Assembly: GCA_016781775.1 (NCBI GenBank)
Contig: JADDPR010000238.1
Location: 1-34,202 of the forward strand
Source of the DNA: Rubrobacter sp.
GTDB lineage: Bacteria; Actinomycetota; Rubrobacteria; Rubrobacterales; Rubrobacteraceae
Length of the DNA: 34,202 nucleotides
Direction: 5' to 3'
Numbering within the stretch: position 1 is the stretch's first letter; the number at the start of each line of letters is the position of its first letter. The notes under the pieces are model-generated. The model did no database searches. It saw nothing but the letters and a program-made list of their open reading frames with translations, and was not told where the DNA came from. Below are positions 20,354 to 31,306 of this stretch, in pieces. Position numbers and translations under genes: made by a program.

Positions 20354-21796
20354 GTGCGGAGGTTTGTTTTACTAACGATGGCGGTTCTGATGCTCGTGGC
20401 AGCGGTGCCCGGGCTGGCGCTAGCACAGGAAGAGGCGCCTCCGACCGTCGAGGAGATGGTGCTCGCGGTAGACACCCTGTGGGTGGTCGTCGCGGCGATG
20501 CTCGTCATCTTCATGCAGGCGGGCTTCGCGATGCTCGAGGTCGGCTTCTCGCGCATGAAGAACGTCGGAAGCGTCGTCGCCAAGATCCTGGCGATGATGG
20601 GCATCGGCATCGTGATGTTCTGGGCGGTCGGCTTCGGCCTCACCTTCTCCGACGGCGGCGCCCTCAACCCCTTTATAGGCCTCGGGGGCTTCTTCCTGAC
20701 CGGTGACGCCGAGACGTACGCGGGACTCTCGTGGACGGCGGTGCCGGTCTCCGCCAAGTTCCTGTTCCAGGTAGCCTTCGCGCTCGTCTCGCTGGCCATC
20801 GTCTGGGGGACGATGCTCGAGCGGACCAAGTTCGCGGTTTATTGCATCTTCGCCGTGGTCTTCGCGGGGATGGTCTACCCGATCGTGGGGCACTGGATCT
20901 GGGGCGGCGGCTGGCTCGCGGGCTTCGGCATGCAGGACTTCGCGGGCTCCACGGTCGTCCACCTCTCGGGCGCCATGGCCGCACTCGCCGGTACCCTCCT
21001 CCTCGGTCCCAGGATCGGCAAGTACGACGACGAGGGTCGTCCGCAGACCATCTCGGGCCACAACATGCCGCTCGCGGTCCTCGGCGTCATCATCCTCTGG
21101 ATCGGCTGGTTCGGCTTCAACCCCGGCTCCACCATGGCCGCCGTCGGCGCCTCCTTCGCGGACATCGCCCTGACGACCAACCTCGCGGCCGGGGCCGGCG
21201 TGCTCGGGGCCATGTTTATGAGCTACGCTTACCGCCGCCACATCGACGTCGGGATGGCGGGCAACGGCGCCATCGCCGCCCTCGTCGCCATCACCGCCGC
21301 CTGCGCCTTTGTCGACCCGTGGGCCTCGATCGTCATAGGCTTTATCGCGGGCGTCATCATGTACTCCGTCCTCGTCTTCGTGGACAGCATCGGCGTCGAC
21401 GATCCCCTAGGCGCCATCGCGGCGCACGGCATGGGCGGCATCTGGGGCACCCTCTCGACCGGCCTCTTCGCCACCCCCGCCCTTGTCGAGGCCACCGGCG
21501 TCGGCAACCCCGGCCTGTTCTACGGCGGCGGCTTCGCCCAGCTCGGCGTGCAGGCCCTCGGCATCGTCGTCTGCGGCGGCTTCGTCTTCCTCGTCTCCTA
21601 CGGCGTCTTCGCCGCCCTCAAGGCGACCATCGGCCTCCGCGTCAAGCCCGAGCACGAACTCGACGGCCTCGACATCTCCGAGCACGGCGTCTACGGCTAC
21701 TCCGAGCAGCTCGTCGCCACCGACTACCAGAACGGAAGCGCCAGCAACGGCATCGCCAGCCCGGTGGACGGCAGAACCGTCGGGGGCACAGCCTAA
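20354..21796 (+). CDS. amt: Ammonium transporter, Amt family
   Basis: N-terminal signal-like segment, DTLWVVVAAMLVIFMQAGFAMLEVGFSRMKN, FAGSTVVHLSGAMAALAG, WIGWFGFNPGS and DDPLGAIAAHGMGGIWGTLSTGLFA. GTG start with AAGGAGG SD at 20341-20347; the ORF-track start at 20012 lies in non-coding-looking leader. Confidence 0.95.
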   Translation: MRRFVLLTMAVLMLVAAVPGLALAQEEAPPTVEEMVLAVDTLWVVVAAMLVIFMQAGFAMLEVGFSRMKNVGSVVAKILAMMGIGIVMFWAVGFGLTFSDGGALNPFIGLGGFFLTGDAETYAGLSWTAVPVSAKFLFQVAFALVSLAIVWGTMLERTKFAVYCIFAVVFAGMVYPIVGHWIWGGGWLAGFGMQDFAGSTVVHLSGAMAALAGTLLLGPRIGKYDDEGRPQTISGHNMPLAVLGVIILWIGWFGFNPGSTMAAVGASFADIALTTNLAAGAGVLGAMFMSYAYRRHIDVGMAGNGAIAALVAITAACAFVDPWASIVIGFIAGVIMYSVLVFVDSIGVDDPLGAIAAHGMGGIWGTLSTGLFATPALVEATGVGNPGLFYGGGFAQLGVQALGIVVCGGFVFLVSYGVFAALKATIGLRVKPEHELDGLDISEHGVYGYSEQLVATDYQNGSASNGIASPVDGRTVGGTA

Positions 21797-21810: not shown

Positions 21811-21873
21811 CCGGCGGGGCTCTTCCCCGCCGGGCCCCGTCCGAAACCCCGGGAACACTCCGGGGTTTCGGAC
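21811..21873 (+). terminator. Two tandem hairpins downstream of amt
   Basis: CCGGCGGGG/CCCCGCCGG (21811-21819 / 21825-21833), then a perfect 14-bp stem GTCCGAAACCCCGG/CCGGGGTTTCGGAC (21839-21852 / 21860-21873). No long T tract. Confidence 0.6.
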
Positions 21874-21916
21874 GTTTCGTACGGTGCAGATCACGAGACC
21901 CTTACAGAAAGCGGGC

Positions 21917-22201
21917 ATGGAGCACAACAGACCCTTAGCGCAAGGCGCCGGGACCAACGTCGTGGTCAACGTCTATCCCGACCGGGTGGAGCTCGTCTCC
22001 GGATGGCAGGGCCAGAACGTGGTAGCGGTGGGGCTCAGGCAGGTGGTCGACGCGACGGTGCGCGGCGTCATCAACGCCACCCTGATCATCGAGACGAACG
22101 ACGGCCGCCGCATGGACGTCGAACGCATGGCCCTCCCCGACGCTCGTCAGGTAAAGGAGGCCATCGAACGGCAGAAGAAGACCGCGGGCCTCTACGAGTA
22201 G
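21917..22201 (+). CDS. Small conserved-looking hypothetical protein (possible PH-like fold)
   Basis: 94 aa, MEHNRPLAQGAGTNVVVNVYPDRVELVSGWQGQNVVAVGLRQVVDATVRGVINATLIIETNDGRRMDVERMALPDARQVKEAIERQKK; alternating beta pattern then a helix. Family assignment is only an impression. Confidence 0.6.
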   Translation: MEHNRPLAQGAGTNVVVNVYPDRVELVSGWQGQNVVAVGLRQVVDATVRGVINATLIIETNDGRRMDVERMALPDARQVKEAIERQKKTAGLYE

Positions 22202-22247: not shown

Positions 22248-22261
22248 GTCGCGATGGACGA

Positions 22262-22358
22262 ACACGGGGGAGCTCCGCAGGAGCTGAGATGGCGCGGGGC
22301 TTAGCAGCCAGTGGCGCCGACCCTTTGAACCTGATCCGGTCAGCACCGGCGGAGGGAG
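22262..22358 (+). promoter_or_regulatory. TPP (THI-box) riboswitch
   Basis: GGGGG-AGCTCC-gca-GGAGCTGAGAT (P2/P3 and CUGAGA core), optional P3a GGCGC...GCGCC, then ACCCTTTGAACCTGATCCGGTCAGCACCGGCGGAGGGA, matching the THI-box consensus ACCCUUUGAACCUGAUCYGG...CCRGCGUAGGGA. Confidence 0.93.
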
Positions 22359-22363
22359 AGAGC

Positions 22364-23131
22364 ATGAGCATCCTTGAGGGCAAGGTCGCGCTCGTCACCG
22401 GCGCGAGCCGGGGGGTTGGCGCGGCGGTGGCGGAATCTCTGGCGGGCGAAGGCGCCGCAGTGGTCGTGAACTACCTGAAGAACGAGGCGTTCGCCGGTGA
22501 GGTCGTGGACAGGATACGGTCGAGGGGCGGAGACGCCTTCGCGTACGGTGCCGACGTCACCGACGCCTCGTCGGTGCGCGAGATGGTCCAGGCAACCGCC
22601 GAGACCCTGGGTTCGGTGAACATCCTCATCAACAACGCCCTCCCAGACTACAAGTTCGATCCCGTCGGGCGCAAGGACTTCGCGAGCATCCGGTGGGAGG
22701 ACTACCTCCAGCAGCTCGGGGCGCTCGAAGGGGCCCTCCACTGCTCGCAGGCCGTGGTTCCGGGGATGATCGAGGGGGGCGGCGGCAGAATCGTCAGCAT
22801 CCTCACCAACCTGATAAACAACCCGGTCGTCGCCTACCACGATTACACCACCGCCAAGAGCGCCTTCCTGGGCTTCTCCCGCAACTTGGCCTCCGAGCTG
22901 GGACCGAGCAACATAACGGTCAACATGATAGCCGGTGGCCTCATCGACGAGACCGACGCCAGCGCTCCGACCACCGAAGAGGTACGCAATATCGTTGCGG
23001 CCTCCACTCCCCTGCGCCGGCTCGGCAAGCCGGAGGACATCGGTCGCGCCGTCCTCATGTTCGCCTCGCCCTGGTCGGGCTTCGTCACCGGCCAGTACAT
23101 CACCTGCGACGGCGGCCTGGTGATGCCGTGA
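22364..23131 (+). CDS. Short-chain dehydrogenase/reductase (FabG-like)
   Basis: Rossmann motif GKVALVTGASRGVG, INNALPDY, catalytic YTTAK and C-terminal FVTGQYITCDGG. ATG 22364 lies 8 nt after GGAGG; the ORF-track start at 22289 is inside the aptamer. Confidence 0.93.
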   Translation: MSILEGKVALVTGASRGVGAAVAESLAGEGAAVVVNYLKNEAFAGEVVDRIRSRGGDAFAYGADVTDASSVREMVQATAETLGSVNILINNALPDYKFDPVGRKDFASIRWEDYLQQLGALEGALHCSQAVVPGMIEGGGGRIVSILTNLINNPVVAYHDYTTAKSAFLGFSRNLASELGPSNITVNMIAGGLIDETDASAPTTEEVRNIVAASTPLRRLGKPEDIGRAVLMFASPWSGFVTGQYITCDGGLVMP

Positions 23132-28677: not shown

Positions 28678-29349
28678 TTACCCGGTCAGGTCGGGTCCGT
28701 AAAGCTCCGCATACGCATTCCGGGCCTCCGACACGCTCGTAACGTATTCGCGGGTCTCCTGGAACGGTATCTCCTCGGGGATCGAGCGTCCCTCGGCCAG
28801 CCACGAATCCACCTGGCCCTCGCCGGAGTTGTACGCCGCGAGCGCCAGCGTCTCGTCCCCGTCGTACCGGCCCCGAAGATAGTTCAGGTACCAGGCACCC
28901 ATCCGGACGTTCGTCGCGGGCTCCCTGTGGTCGCCGGTTATGCCGCTTCGCGAGGAGATGAACGCGGCCGTATCGGGCAGCACCTGCATGAGCCCGTAGG
29001 CCCCCTGCGAGGACTGGGCGTCGGGATCGTAGCGGCTCTCGACGTAGACCACGCCGGCCACCAACGTCGGCTCCAGGCCCTGCTCCGCCGCCGCCGCGCG
29101 TATCTCTTCTTCGTATCTCAGTGGATGCAAGGCCTTCTGCACGACACCGGGTGCCCGCAGAAGGAGCGGCAGCGCGAGAAGCAAGATGGAGAGGAGGATC
29201 AACCACGGGACCACGCGACGGCGGCGCTCGCGCGAGCGCCCATAGTACCGTTTACCCTTCTTCGCCCTCGTGCCCGTGCCGACCACTCCCACCCCGAACC
29301 CTCTCGAAGAGCCCCTCCGCTTGCCCCCTGAGTTTACCGAGGTCGCCAT
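28678..29349 (-). CDS. Membrane-anchored lytic transglycosylase (SLT family)
   Basis: TM helix VVPWLILLSILLLALPLLL, then GVVYVESRYDPDAQSSQGAYGLMQVLPDTA and LALAAYNSGEGQVDSWL. The ATG start would overlap coaE by 98 nt; a later start is possible. Confidence 0.88.
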   Translation of the reverse strand: MATSVNSGGKRRGSSRGFGVGVVGTGTRAKKGKRYYGRSRERRRRVVPWLILLSILLLALPLLLRAPGVVQKALHPLRYEEEIRAAAAEQGLEPTLVAGVVYVESRYDPDAQSSQGAYGLMQVLPDTAAFISSRSGITGDHREPATNVRMGAWYLNYLRGRYDGDETLALAAYNSGEGQVDSWLAEGRSIPEEIPFQETREYVTSVSEARNAYAELYGPDLTG

Positions 29350-29866
29350 CGTTTTCCACCACCACGTCGGCCCGACGGGCCTTCTCCTCCTGCGGAAGCT
29401 GGCGGGCCTCGATCGCCCGGCGCTGATCCTCGCCCATCCCGCGCTCCGCCGCCCACGTCTTCCGTCGCTCCTCCGGCGCCGTAACCGCGACGGTGAGGTC
29501 GAACTGCCCGCTCCGCTCCCCCTCGAAGAGGAGCGGTATCTCGGCGACAAAGACCTCCGCGCCCGATAGGGCGACCCTTCGGTCCGTCTCCTCGCGCACC
29601 AACGGGTGCAGGATGTCCTCCAGGTCCTTGAGGGCCTCCGGGTCGCCGAAGACCACCCGGGCGAGCGCCCGCCGGTCGATGCCGCCGTCCCCGCCCCTCA
29701 CCCCCTCGCCGAAACGCTCAGAGATCCTCCCGATCGTCTTCTCGTCGCCGGCGAGCAATTCGTGTACGAGCCCGTCGGCCGAGACGGTCTCGGCGCCGAG
29801 CTCACCAAGGATTCGGACGAAGGTGCTCTTGCCACAGGCGAGGGGGCCGGTGACCGCGATGGTCAC
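29252..29866 (-). CDS. coaE: Dephospho-CoA kinase
   Basis: P-loop VTGPLACGKSTFVRIL, SADGLVHELL, DLEDILHPLVR, PLLFEG and ADVVVENDGDLGKL. GTG start. Confidence 0.93.
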   Translation of the reverse strand: MTIAVTGPLACGKSTFVRILGELGAETVSADGLVHELLAGDEKTIGRISERFGEGVRGGDGGIDRRALARVVFGDPEALKDLEDILHPLVREETDRRVALSGAEVFVAEIPLLFEGERSGQFDLTVAVTAPEERRKTWAAERGMGEDQRRAIEARQLPQEEKARRADVVVENDGDLGKLRGQAEGLFERVRGGSGRHGHEGEEG

Positions 29867-29876
29867 CGGCCCCCTC
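29840..29876 (-). promoter_or_regulatory. Perfect hairpin over the coaE initiation region
   Basis: 16-bp stem GAGGGGGCCGGTGACC/GGTCACCGGCCCCCTC with 5-nt loop; the minus-strand 5' arm holds the SD-like GAGGGGG and the GTG start codon. Confidence 0.75.
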
Positions 29877-29904
29877 TTGGGCTCGCTATTCGTAGGGGCC
29901 GAAG

Positions 29905-31263
29905 CTACTCACGATCCCCGAGGTCGAGGTCGGAGAGCTTGTCGAAGGCGCCGGTCCTGAGGCCGTCGCCGACCCGGTCCTGCCTGTCGCGCCCGCCCCG
30001 GTCGCGGTCGCCACGGCCGCCGCCACGGTCGCCGCGCGGCTCGAAGTCGCGGCGGAAGCGGTCCTCGCGGCGCGGACGCTCGGGACGGTCGCCCCCACCG
30101 CTCTCCTCGCCCCGGTCGGCACGCTCCGGACGATCGGCACGCTCCTCGCGCTCCTCCTTCTTCGGACGGAGGGAGAGGGAGAGGCGGCGCCGCTTCGCAT
30201 CCACGTCGATGATGCGGGCGTCCACCTCGTCGCCGCTACGTACGATCTCGTCCGGCGTCTCCACGTGGTGCTCGGCGAGCTCGGAGATGTGGATGAGGCC
30301 CTCGACACCCTCGGCGACCTCGACGAACGCGCCGAAGGAGACGAGCTTGGTGACGCGGCCCTGGATCTGCTCGCCGACGTTGACCCGCTCGACGATCTCC
30401 TGCCACGGGTCCTTGCGGGTCTGCTTGAGGCCCAGAGAGATCCTCTCGCGGTCACGGTCGACTTCCAGGACCTTGACCTTGACCTTCTCGCCGACCTCGA
30501 CGACCTCGCTCGGATGGTCCACGTGGTTCCAGGAGAGCTCGGAGATGTGTATGAGGCCGTCGATCCCCTCGAGGTCGACGAACGCGCCGAAGTCCACGAG
30601 GTTGGAGACGACACCCTCGATGGTGTCCCCTTCCTGGAGCTCCGTGAGGATGCGGTGACGCTCCTCCTTGCGCTCCTCCTCGAGGACCGCCCTGCGGCTC
30701 AACACCACGTTGTTGCGGCTCCGGTTAAGCTCGATGACCTTGCACTCGAGCTTCTGGCCGAGGAAGGCGTCCAGGTTGCGCACCCGGCGGATGTCCACGA
30801 GGCTCGCCGGGAGGAAGCCGCGAAGGCCGATGTCCAGGATCAGACCGCCCTTCACCACCTCGATGACCGGGCCCTCGACGGTGCGCTGCTCGGAGTGGGC
30901 CTCCTCGATGCGCTTCCACGCCTTCTCGAAGGCGGCCCGCTTGGCCGAGAGGATCAGACGCCCGTCGGCGTCCTCCTTCTGCAGGACCAGCGCCTCGACG
31001 TGCTGCCCGAGCTCCACGATGTCGTGAGGGTCGGCGCCCTTACGGATGGAGAGCTCGTTGGACGGTATGAGGCCCTCGGACTTGTAGCCGATATCCACGA
31101 GGACTTCGTCCTTGTCGATACGCACGACGTCGCCTTCGACGATGTCGCCGTCCTTGAAGTCGATGAGTACTGCCTCGTCAACGGGAACGATCTCCCCGTT
31201 CTCTTCTTTGAAGAAGTCCCTCATCGTCAGCGTGCGGGACAAGTTCTCGGTGGTATTAGCCAT
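29905..31263 (-). CDS. rpsA: 30S ribosomal protein S1
   Basis: Repeated S1 domains (GDIVEGDVVRIDKDEVLVDIGYKSEGLIP, GVVSNLVDFGAFVDLEGIDGLIHISELSW, GRVTKLVSFGAFVEVAEGVEGLIHISEL). ATG 31263 preferred; ORF track extends to 31335. Confidence 0.96.
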   Translation of the reverse strand: MANTTENLSRTLTMRDFFKEENGEIVPVDEAVLIDFKDGDIVEGDVVRIDKDEVLVDIGYKSEGLIPSNELSIRKGADPHDIVELGQHVEALVLQKEDADGRLILSAKRAAFEKAWKRIEEAHSEQRTVEGPVIEVVKGGLILDIGLRGFLPASLVDIRRVRNLDAFLGQKLECKVIELNRSRNNVVLSRRAVLEEERKEERHRILTELQEGDTIEGVVSNLVDFGAFVDLEGIDGLIHISELSWNHVDHPSEVVEVGEKVKVKVLEVDRDRERISLGLKQTRKDPWQEIVERVNVGEQIQGRVTKLVSFGAFVEVAEGVEGLIHISELAEHHVETPDEIVRSGDEVDARIIDVDAKRRRLSLSLRPKKEEREERADRPERADRGEESGGGDRPERPRREDRFRRDFEPRGDRGGGRGDRDRGGRDRQDRVGDGLRTGAFDKLSDLDLGDRE

Positions 31264-31300
31264 GTAGCAGTTGCTTTCCTTCTCTTTGTTTGCAAATTTC

Positions 31301-31306
31301 ATTATA
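31301..31306 (-). promoter_or_regulatory. Consensus -10 element upstream of rpsA
   Basis: TATAAT on the minus strand, 37 nt upstream of the rpsA start; no good -35. Confidence 0.5.

Follow-up and report, generated by a model that had tools for sequence, protein, structure and literature searches.

The window analyzed here is a 34,202-nucleotide stretch of Rubrobacter sp. DNA in which rpsA and coaE lie one after the other on the minus strand. The rpsA product matched PF00575 (S1) in Pfam at 248.6 bits, in four stretches that correspond to four S1 domains, and it carries an RGG-rich tail; the position of the rpsA start is uncertain, and the ORF extends to 31335. The product of coaE matched PF01121 (128.9 bits, E = 2.2e-37), and the source genome contains a single copy of the gene. 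CoaE carries out the final step of coenzyme A synthesis. The closest named relative is Rubrobacter marinus, with a CoaE protein identity of 89–90%. The features of the rpsA-coaE junction are as follows:

29905..31302, minus strand: rpsA, ribosomal protein S1 (ORF list, codon-based gene call, and Pfam)
29867..29904, minus strand: spacer of 38 nt from the rpsA stop to the GTG, of which the final 10 nt are the stem foot
29861..29876, minus strand: 5′ arm of the hairpin, GAGGGGGCCGGTGACC, which carries an SD-like G-run and the GTG (sequence and complementarity)
29864..29866, minus strand: GTG, the sole canonical coaE start in the source species (ORF list and family alignment)
29856..29860, minus strand: loop, ATCGC, the sequence of which varies among relatives (alignment)
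29840..29855, minus strand: 3′ arm of the hairpin, GGTCACCGGCCCCCTC, which codes for VTGPL of the P-loop, its codons held to those that pair
29252..29866, minus strand: coaE, dephospho-CoA kinase, 204 aa if translation starts at the GTG (Pfam)

A Perfect Hairpin Encloses the coaE Start Region

The junction reads GAGGGGGCCGGTGACC-ATCGC-GGTCACCGGCCCCCTC on the minus strand (29876–29840). As originally predicted, the arms are complementary at all 16 of 16 positions (29840–29876), the 5′ arm contains the SD-like run and the GTG, the 3′ arm (29840..29855) encodes the P-loop residues VTGPL, and the GTG (29866–29864) lies 38 nt after the rpsA stop (TAG, 29907–29905, minus strand). The base of the stem is 28 nt past that stop. 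Between the upstream in-frame stop and the P-loop, the GTG is the only ATG, GTG, or TTG available to coaE, and in the source species the coaE frame runs open across the 38 nt spacer without a canonical start.

The isolated hairpin has a folding energy of −38.1 kcal/mol. When the junction was folded in a 111 nt context, the energy was −58 kcal/mol (z = −4.5), and none of 200 shuffled sequences folded as well. Every base from GAGGGGG through GTG has a pairing probability of at least 0.995, in agreement with the proposal that the start region of coaE is occluded. Averaged across species, anti-SD pairing peaks in windows that start 7 to 10 nt before the GTG. Of the start regions predicted in 400 kb of R. 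marinus DNA, 354 in all, that of coaE ranks first in stability.

An Rfam search of the window gave no match above the gathering score at the hairpin. Its only match was a TPP riboswitch elsewhere (RF00059, 59.7 bits, 22256–22374, plus strand), which lies directly after a predicted small gene (21884–22201). A terminator scan of the window did not list the rpsA-coaE hairpin, and a promoter scan listed nothing before the coaE GTG. We considered whether translation might begin leaderless at the GTG and rejected this possibility; the sequence 7–12 nt before the GTG is AAGAGG, which is unlike a −10 element. Another candidate, weighed against the R. marinus spacer (CTCGGCAGC), was put down to chance.

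The Stem Is Conserved and Covaries in Rubrobacteraceae

An initial search of 37 Rubrobacteraceae genomes detected coaE in 31, and a hairpin follows rpsA in all 31 of these. The stems contain 12–18 pairs, with a mean energy of −32.5 kcal/mol, and in the 29 junctions that were measured the stem base lies 23–38 nt past the rpsA stop, mostly at 25–31 nt. The original prediction proposed conservation and covariation as a check, and the stem passed it strongly. When 28 distinct sequences are aligned without gaps, 93.8% of the cells pair, and double changes are found at 7 of the 16 pairs, in 30 cells; no shuffle out of 500 reached these values, and when the register was slid by one column, pairing fell to about 50%. 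The covariation counts are inflated by the kinship of the sequences, but the pattern nonetheless recurs across genera. Many of the changes in the stem pass through G.U pairs.

The codons of the 3′ arm are restricted as well. Pro8 is encoded by CCC or CCT in 28 of 28 cases, although CCG makes up 67% of the other Pro codons in coaE; Thr6 is ACC (30/30), Gly7 is GGC or GGT (31/31), and Val5 is GTC or GTT (31/31). In three species (L022, L031, and L055) Ser replaces Pro at position 8, and pairing there is retained. These counts show that synonymous sites in the P-loop arm are confined to bases that pair, and the comparative evidence as a whole shows the stem to be a real, selected RNA element that was previously unlisted. 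RNA pairing therefore shapes the N terminus of an essential enzyme, in that Leu/Phe, Pro/Ser, and codon choice shift together with the untranslated arm.

A palindrome of this kind could also be a DNA operator. We rejected this interpretation: the outer pairs change type yet stay paired, and the many G.U pairs in the stem favor RNA over a DNA operator. The exact core of the stem occurs once in each family genome that has it, apart from one extra copy in each of two species, and is nearly absent elsewhere. The one extra copy that was read (L053) is surrounded by unrelated sequence and appears to be a chance match.

The Start Codon Moves While the Stem Stays

The GTG is kept in 30 of the 31 family genomes. 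In the exception (L015, genome G019), it has become GTA within the stem, with a compensating GTT in the opposite arm; this leaves the species with no canonical coaE start except inside the stem-loop, where a GTG in the loop, two codons further on, is the only one nearby. Upstream of the GTG, the coaE frame contains 12 ATG, GTG, or TTG codons and no stops in 357 codons (29 junctions), whereas the other two frames contain 2 starts and 17 stops in 710 codons; Fisher tests of the coaE frame against the other frames gave p = 8e-5 and 1e-3, uncorrected for kinship. In 12 of the 29 junctions there is an in-frame start outside the stem or at its foot, and some of these starts are unpaired. One species (L005) has an unpaired ATG upstream of the stem. 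Annotated coaE starts in Rubrobacteraceae may be wrong.

The stem is kept where the start has moved upstream or the GTG has been lost, which implies a role beyond start burial. Burial of the start codon is not the conserved property of the junction, and the role of the stem is not only to bury the start.

The frame and the counts of starts and stops suggest that the spacer could be coding sequence, but its substitutions do not. They are distributed over the three codon positions as 56/51/36, compared with 752/412/353 in coaE, and we rejected this candidate.

Hairpins after Stop Codons in Rubrobacter and Other Actinobacteria

Long perfect hairpins are not rare in R. marinus. A search of 400 kb of its DNA, with genes called by our own codon-based caller, turned up 19 with at least 12 bp. 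Fifteen of these lie within 40 nt after a gene end or overlap one, and several have a purine-rich 5′ arm and a pyrimidine-rich 3′ arm, as at coaE. By position and form, the rpsA-coaE hairpin thus belongs with the post-stop hairpins, a class that the original prediction did not take into account, and of the 19 it is the only one that overlaps a predicted start. Most of the long perfect R. marinus hairpins (L091–L110; for example, L092:2177-2206 and L102:19295-19336) lack a U-tract. T-rich tails are often found at the matching sites in other members of the family, and both kinds seem to be used.

As controls, we followed three other post-stop hairpins through the family. The hairpin downstream of aceA has a counterpart in 24 of 30 relatives; for the one behind the ammonium transporter gene the figure is 23 of 30, and for the one behind a phosphomannomutase-like gene it is 10 of 28. 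All three drift in position, loop, and sequence. Unlike these, the rpsA-coaE hairpin is fixed in place; P-loop coding accounts only in part for its fixed 3′ arm. It also differs in its tail, which contains 1–3 T per 8 nt in 31 of 31 species (mean 1.45), with no U-tract, whereas the corresponding values are 3.0 after the aceA hairpins and 2.6 after the ammonium transporter hairpins.

The window itself contains an ordinary terminator, a 15 bp hairpin (21838–21874) that lies 41 nt after the ammonium transporter gene (20378–21796) and has TTTCGT behind it; nine bases separate the hairpin from the next predicted gene. In most relatives the corresponding site also has a hairpin.

The rpsA-coaE gene order is common in Actinomycetota, and terminator-like hairpins occur between the two genes in other actinobacterial families (L218 among them). 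Some of these hairpins have a U-tract (L208, L210, L213, L215, and L280) and others do not (L209, L220, L253, L255, L256, and L271). Several families in which rpsA adjoins coaE have no such hairpin (L201, L204, L206, L207, and L219), and in some the junction is short and lacks one.

In one family of the same phylum (f14, L221–L250), most of the 28 junctions have no canonical coaE start near the P-loop. In these junctions coaE follows the rpsA stop in the +1 frame; the spacings differ in length, and all of them are 1 mod 3. Most of the exceptions carry their own coaE start. The start-less junctions often read GCC TGA C, a context that we take to resemble the prfB frameshift site, and in two of them (L236 and L241) the open coaE frame contains no ATG, GTG, or TTG at all. 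These junctions are candidates for an RpsA-CoaE +1 frameshift or for a start deep inside rpsA. One member of the family (L249, genome G049) has an independent 13-pair hairpin of different sequence, 14–52 nt after the rpsA stop, that places the coaE ATG in its 3′ arm; most other members lack it.

Alternative Explanations for the Stem

According to the original prediction, the stem should nearly abolish independent initiation, so that coaE translation might depend on ribosomes or S1 arriving from rpsA, or on another regulator. Such a pure translational silencer, in which the stem buries the coaE SD and GTG until a regulator or rpsA ribosomes open it, seems doubtful to us. It is favored by the essentially complete pairing of the SD and the start, by a start-region stability that is the highest of the 354, and by the conservation and covariation of the stem. 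However, the stem is retained with GTA in L015 and with an unpaired upstream start in L005, and we saw neither a conserved loop nor an alternative strand with which an arm could pair. We also doubt coupling to rpsA ribosomes. The distance from the rpsA stop to the stem is 28 nt here (23–38 nt in the family), and translational coupling has been reviewed as little or none above a spacing of 30 nt (PMC12548453), which makes coupling geometrically weak. In RNA-unfolding coupling (PMC12548453), the RBS and start of the downstream gene lie inside a repressive hairpin, as they do here, but upstream ribosomes disrupt that structure before they terminate, and this arrangement was found at none of the 29 junctions; with the rpsA stop 28 nt before the stem, rather than inside or abutting it, terminating ribosomes should not open it. 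The attractive idea of regulation by S1 itself found no support. In E. coli, S1 autoregulates through single-stranded, AU-rich sites located where rpsA translation initiates (PMC10931766), and no site of that definition is present at the hairpin, which is a GC-rich helix with a variable loop. The γ-proteobacterial rpsA leader (PMC10931766) is similar in that rpsA mRNA is involved, but it is AU-rich, single stranded, and at the rpsA start, whereas the GC helix is at the other end of the gene. Occlusion thus survives from the original prediction, and GTG burial as the conserved property, classical coupling, and the link to S1 do not. An RNA thermometer was likewise rejected, as the structure is far too stable (−42.5 kcal/mol at 28°C; still −26.8 kcal/mol at 60°C).

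It is improbable, in our estimate, that the stem acts instead as an mRNA processing or stability element, either as a candidate RNase III site or through exonuclease trimming after Rho termination, with no intrinsic termination; the lack of a U-tract and the long perfect helix are consistent with this, as is the suggestion, made for Streptomyces, that hairpin ends lacking a U-tract could arise by trimming after Rho termination (PMC8269248). Such an element would be expected to give a stable rpsA mRNA and an unstable coaE mRNA. We think it very unlikely that, where there is no upstream start, rpsA ribosomes reach coaE by a change of frame that the hairpin assists. A change at or after the rpsA stop would, on this equally slim account, make CoaE or an S1-CoaE fusion and be the counterpart of the f14 junctions, most of which have coaE in the +1 frame relative to rpsA and lack a nearby start. 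Of the 29 junctions, 25 have a distance of 2 mod 3 between the rpsA stop and the GTG, although lengths vary (32, 38, or 41), and these include 17 of the 17 without an upstream start; the coaE frame has no in-frame stops, and L015 has no start outside the stem-loop. Yet the junctions share no slippery site, the hairpin is 28 nt away, and the coaE frame differs from that in f14. In the window, moreover, a TGA (CGTGAG) interrupts the coaE frame right at the end of rpsA, and the spacer, with no coding-like third-position bias in its 56/51/36 substitutions (752/412/353 in coaE), is not evolving like coding sequence, so a frameshift is unlikely there. Finally, a GC-rich genome with further long hairpins might produce such a stem by coincidence from GC-rich P-loop codons, or an assembly artifact might mimic one. 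An artifact is excluded because the 31 carriers span many genera and include complete chromosomes, and with the stem present in 31 of 31 genomes, compensatory changes, and restricted codons, we find this explanation scarcely credible.

A Model for the rpsA-coaE Hairpin

As the most likely reading, we propose that the stem is a terminator-type hairpin that follows the rpsA stop, sets the ratio of S1 to CoaE, and masks the coaE start, and we give this proposal about an even chance of being correct. In its simplest history, coaE came to lie so close to rpsA that its first codons form the 3′ arm; in Rubrobacteraceae the post-rpsA hairpin would thus have been absorbed into the beginning of coaE, with P-loop codons as its 3′ arm. 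A single helix is a post-stop hairpin of rpsA, encloses the coaE initiation region, and codes for the P-loop.

The analysis shows the helix, its conservation and covariation, its restricted codons, its class of position, and the migration of the start codon; we infer partial termination or 3′-end protection, translational dampening, and an expression ratio that results from them. At the end of rpsA, the helix may stop or slow a share of the RNA polymerases, may shield the 3′ end of rpsA mRNA from exonucleases, or may do both. On read-through transcripts it would hide the coaE initiation region and keep coaE translation low; most initiation would take place in the brief interval before the 3′ arm has been transcribed, or at upstream in-frame starts in species that have them. 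The outcome would be much S1 and little CoaE from one operon. The main weakness of the proposal is the missing U-tract; the fixed position of this hairpin, where other post-stop hairpins drift, and the families with adjoining rpsA and coaE but no hairpin also count against it. Among the papers searched, none combines coaE, rpsA, and Rubrobacter.

Comparison with Known Systems

In the E. coli rpsU-dnaG-rpoD operon, an internal terminator lies between a ribosomal protein gene and dnaG. The two arrangements are alike in that a ribosomal protein gene is followed in one operon by the gene for a scarce enzyme; they differ in their genes and in that the E. coli terminator is separate from the dnaG start.

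The rpsA-coaE hairpin resembles an intrinsic terminator in being a GC-rich, stable hairpin (16 bp) shortly after a stop codon (28 nt), but in none of the 31 species is there a U-tract right after the stem, and intrinsic termination may therefore be weak or absent. A survey of 13 genomes concluded that U-tracts are unnecessary (PMC8355165). Hairpins without them are a mapped class of 3′ ends in Streptomyces and could reflect either I-shaped terminators or the trimming of Rho ends (PMC8269248). A strong GC stem-loop just after a gene, without a U-tract, is what these actinobacterial ends and the rpsA-coaE junction have in common. The U-lack or I-shaped ends, however, are mapped transcript ends (PMC8269248), whereas the rpsA-coaE stem is known from sequence and overlaps the next ORF.

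In clostridial operons, stoichiometry is set by internal terminators whose GC stems are long and whose U content is low (PMC9045158). Those in the ABC importer operons of Ruminiclostridium cellulolyticum (PMC9045158) are similarly placed, after the stop of a gene with an abundant product and before a gene whose product is needed in smaller amounts, and they have the same long, GC-rich, U-poor stems. At rpsA-coaE, in contrast, the stem contains the start of the downstream gene and has coding sequence as its 3′ arm, and termination is putative. The junction offers a clean natural case in which the effect of U-less hairpins on expression ratios could be measured in GC-rich bacteria.
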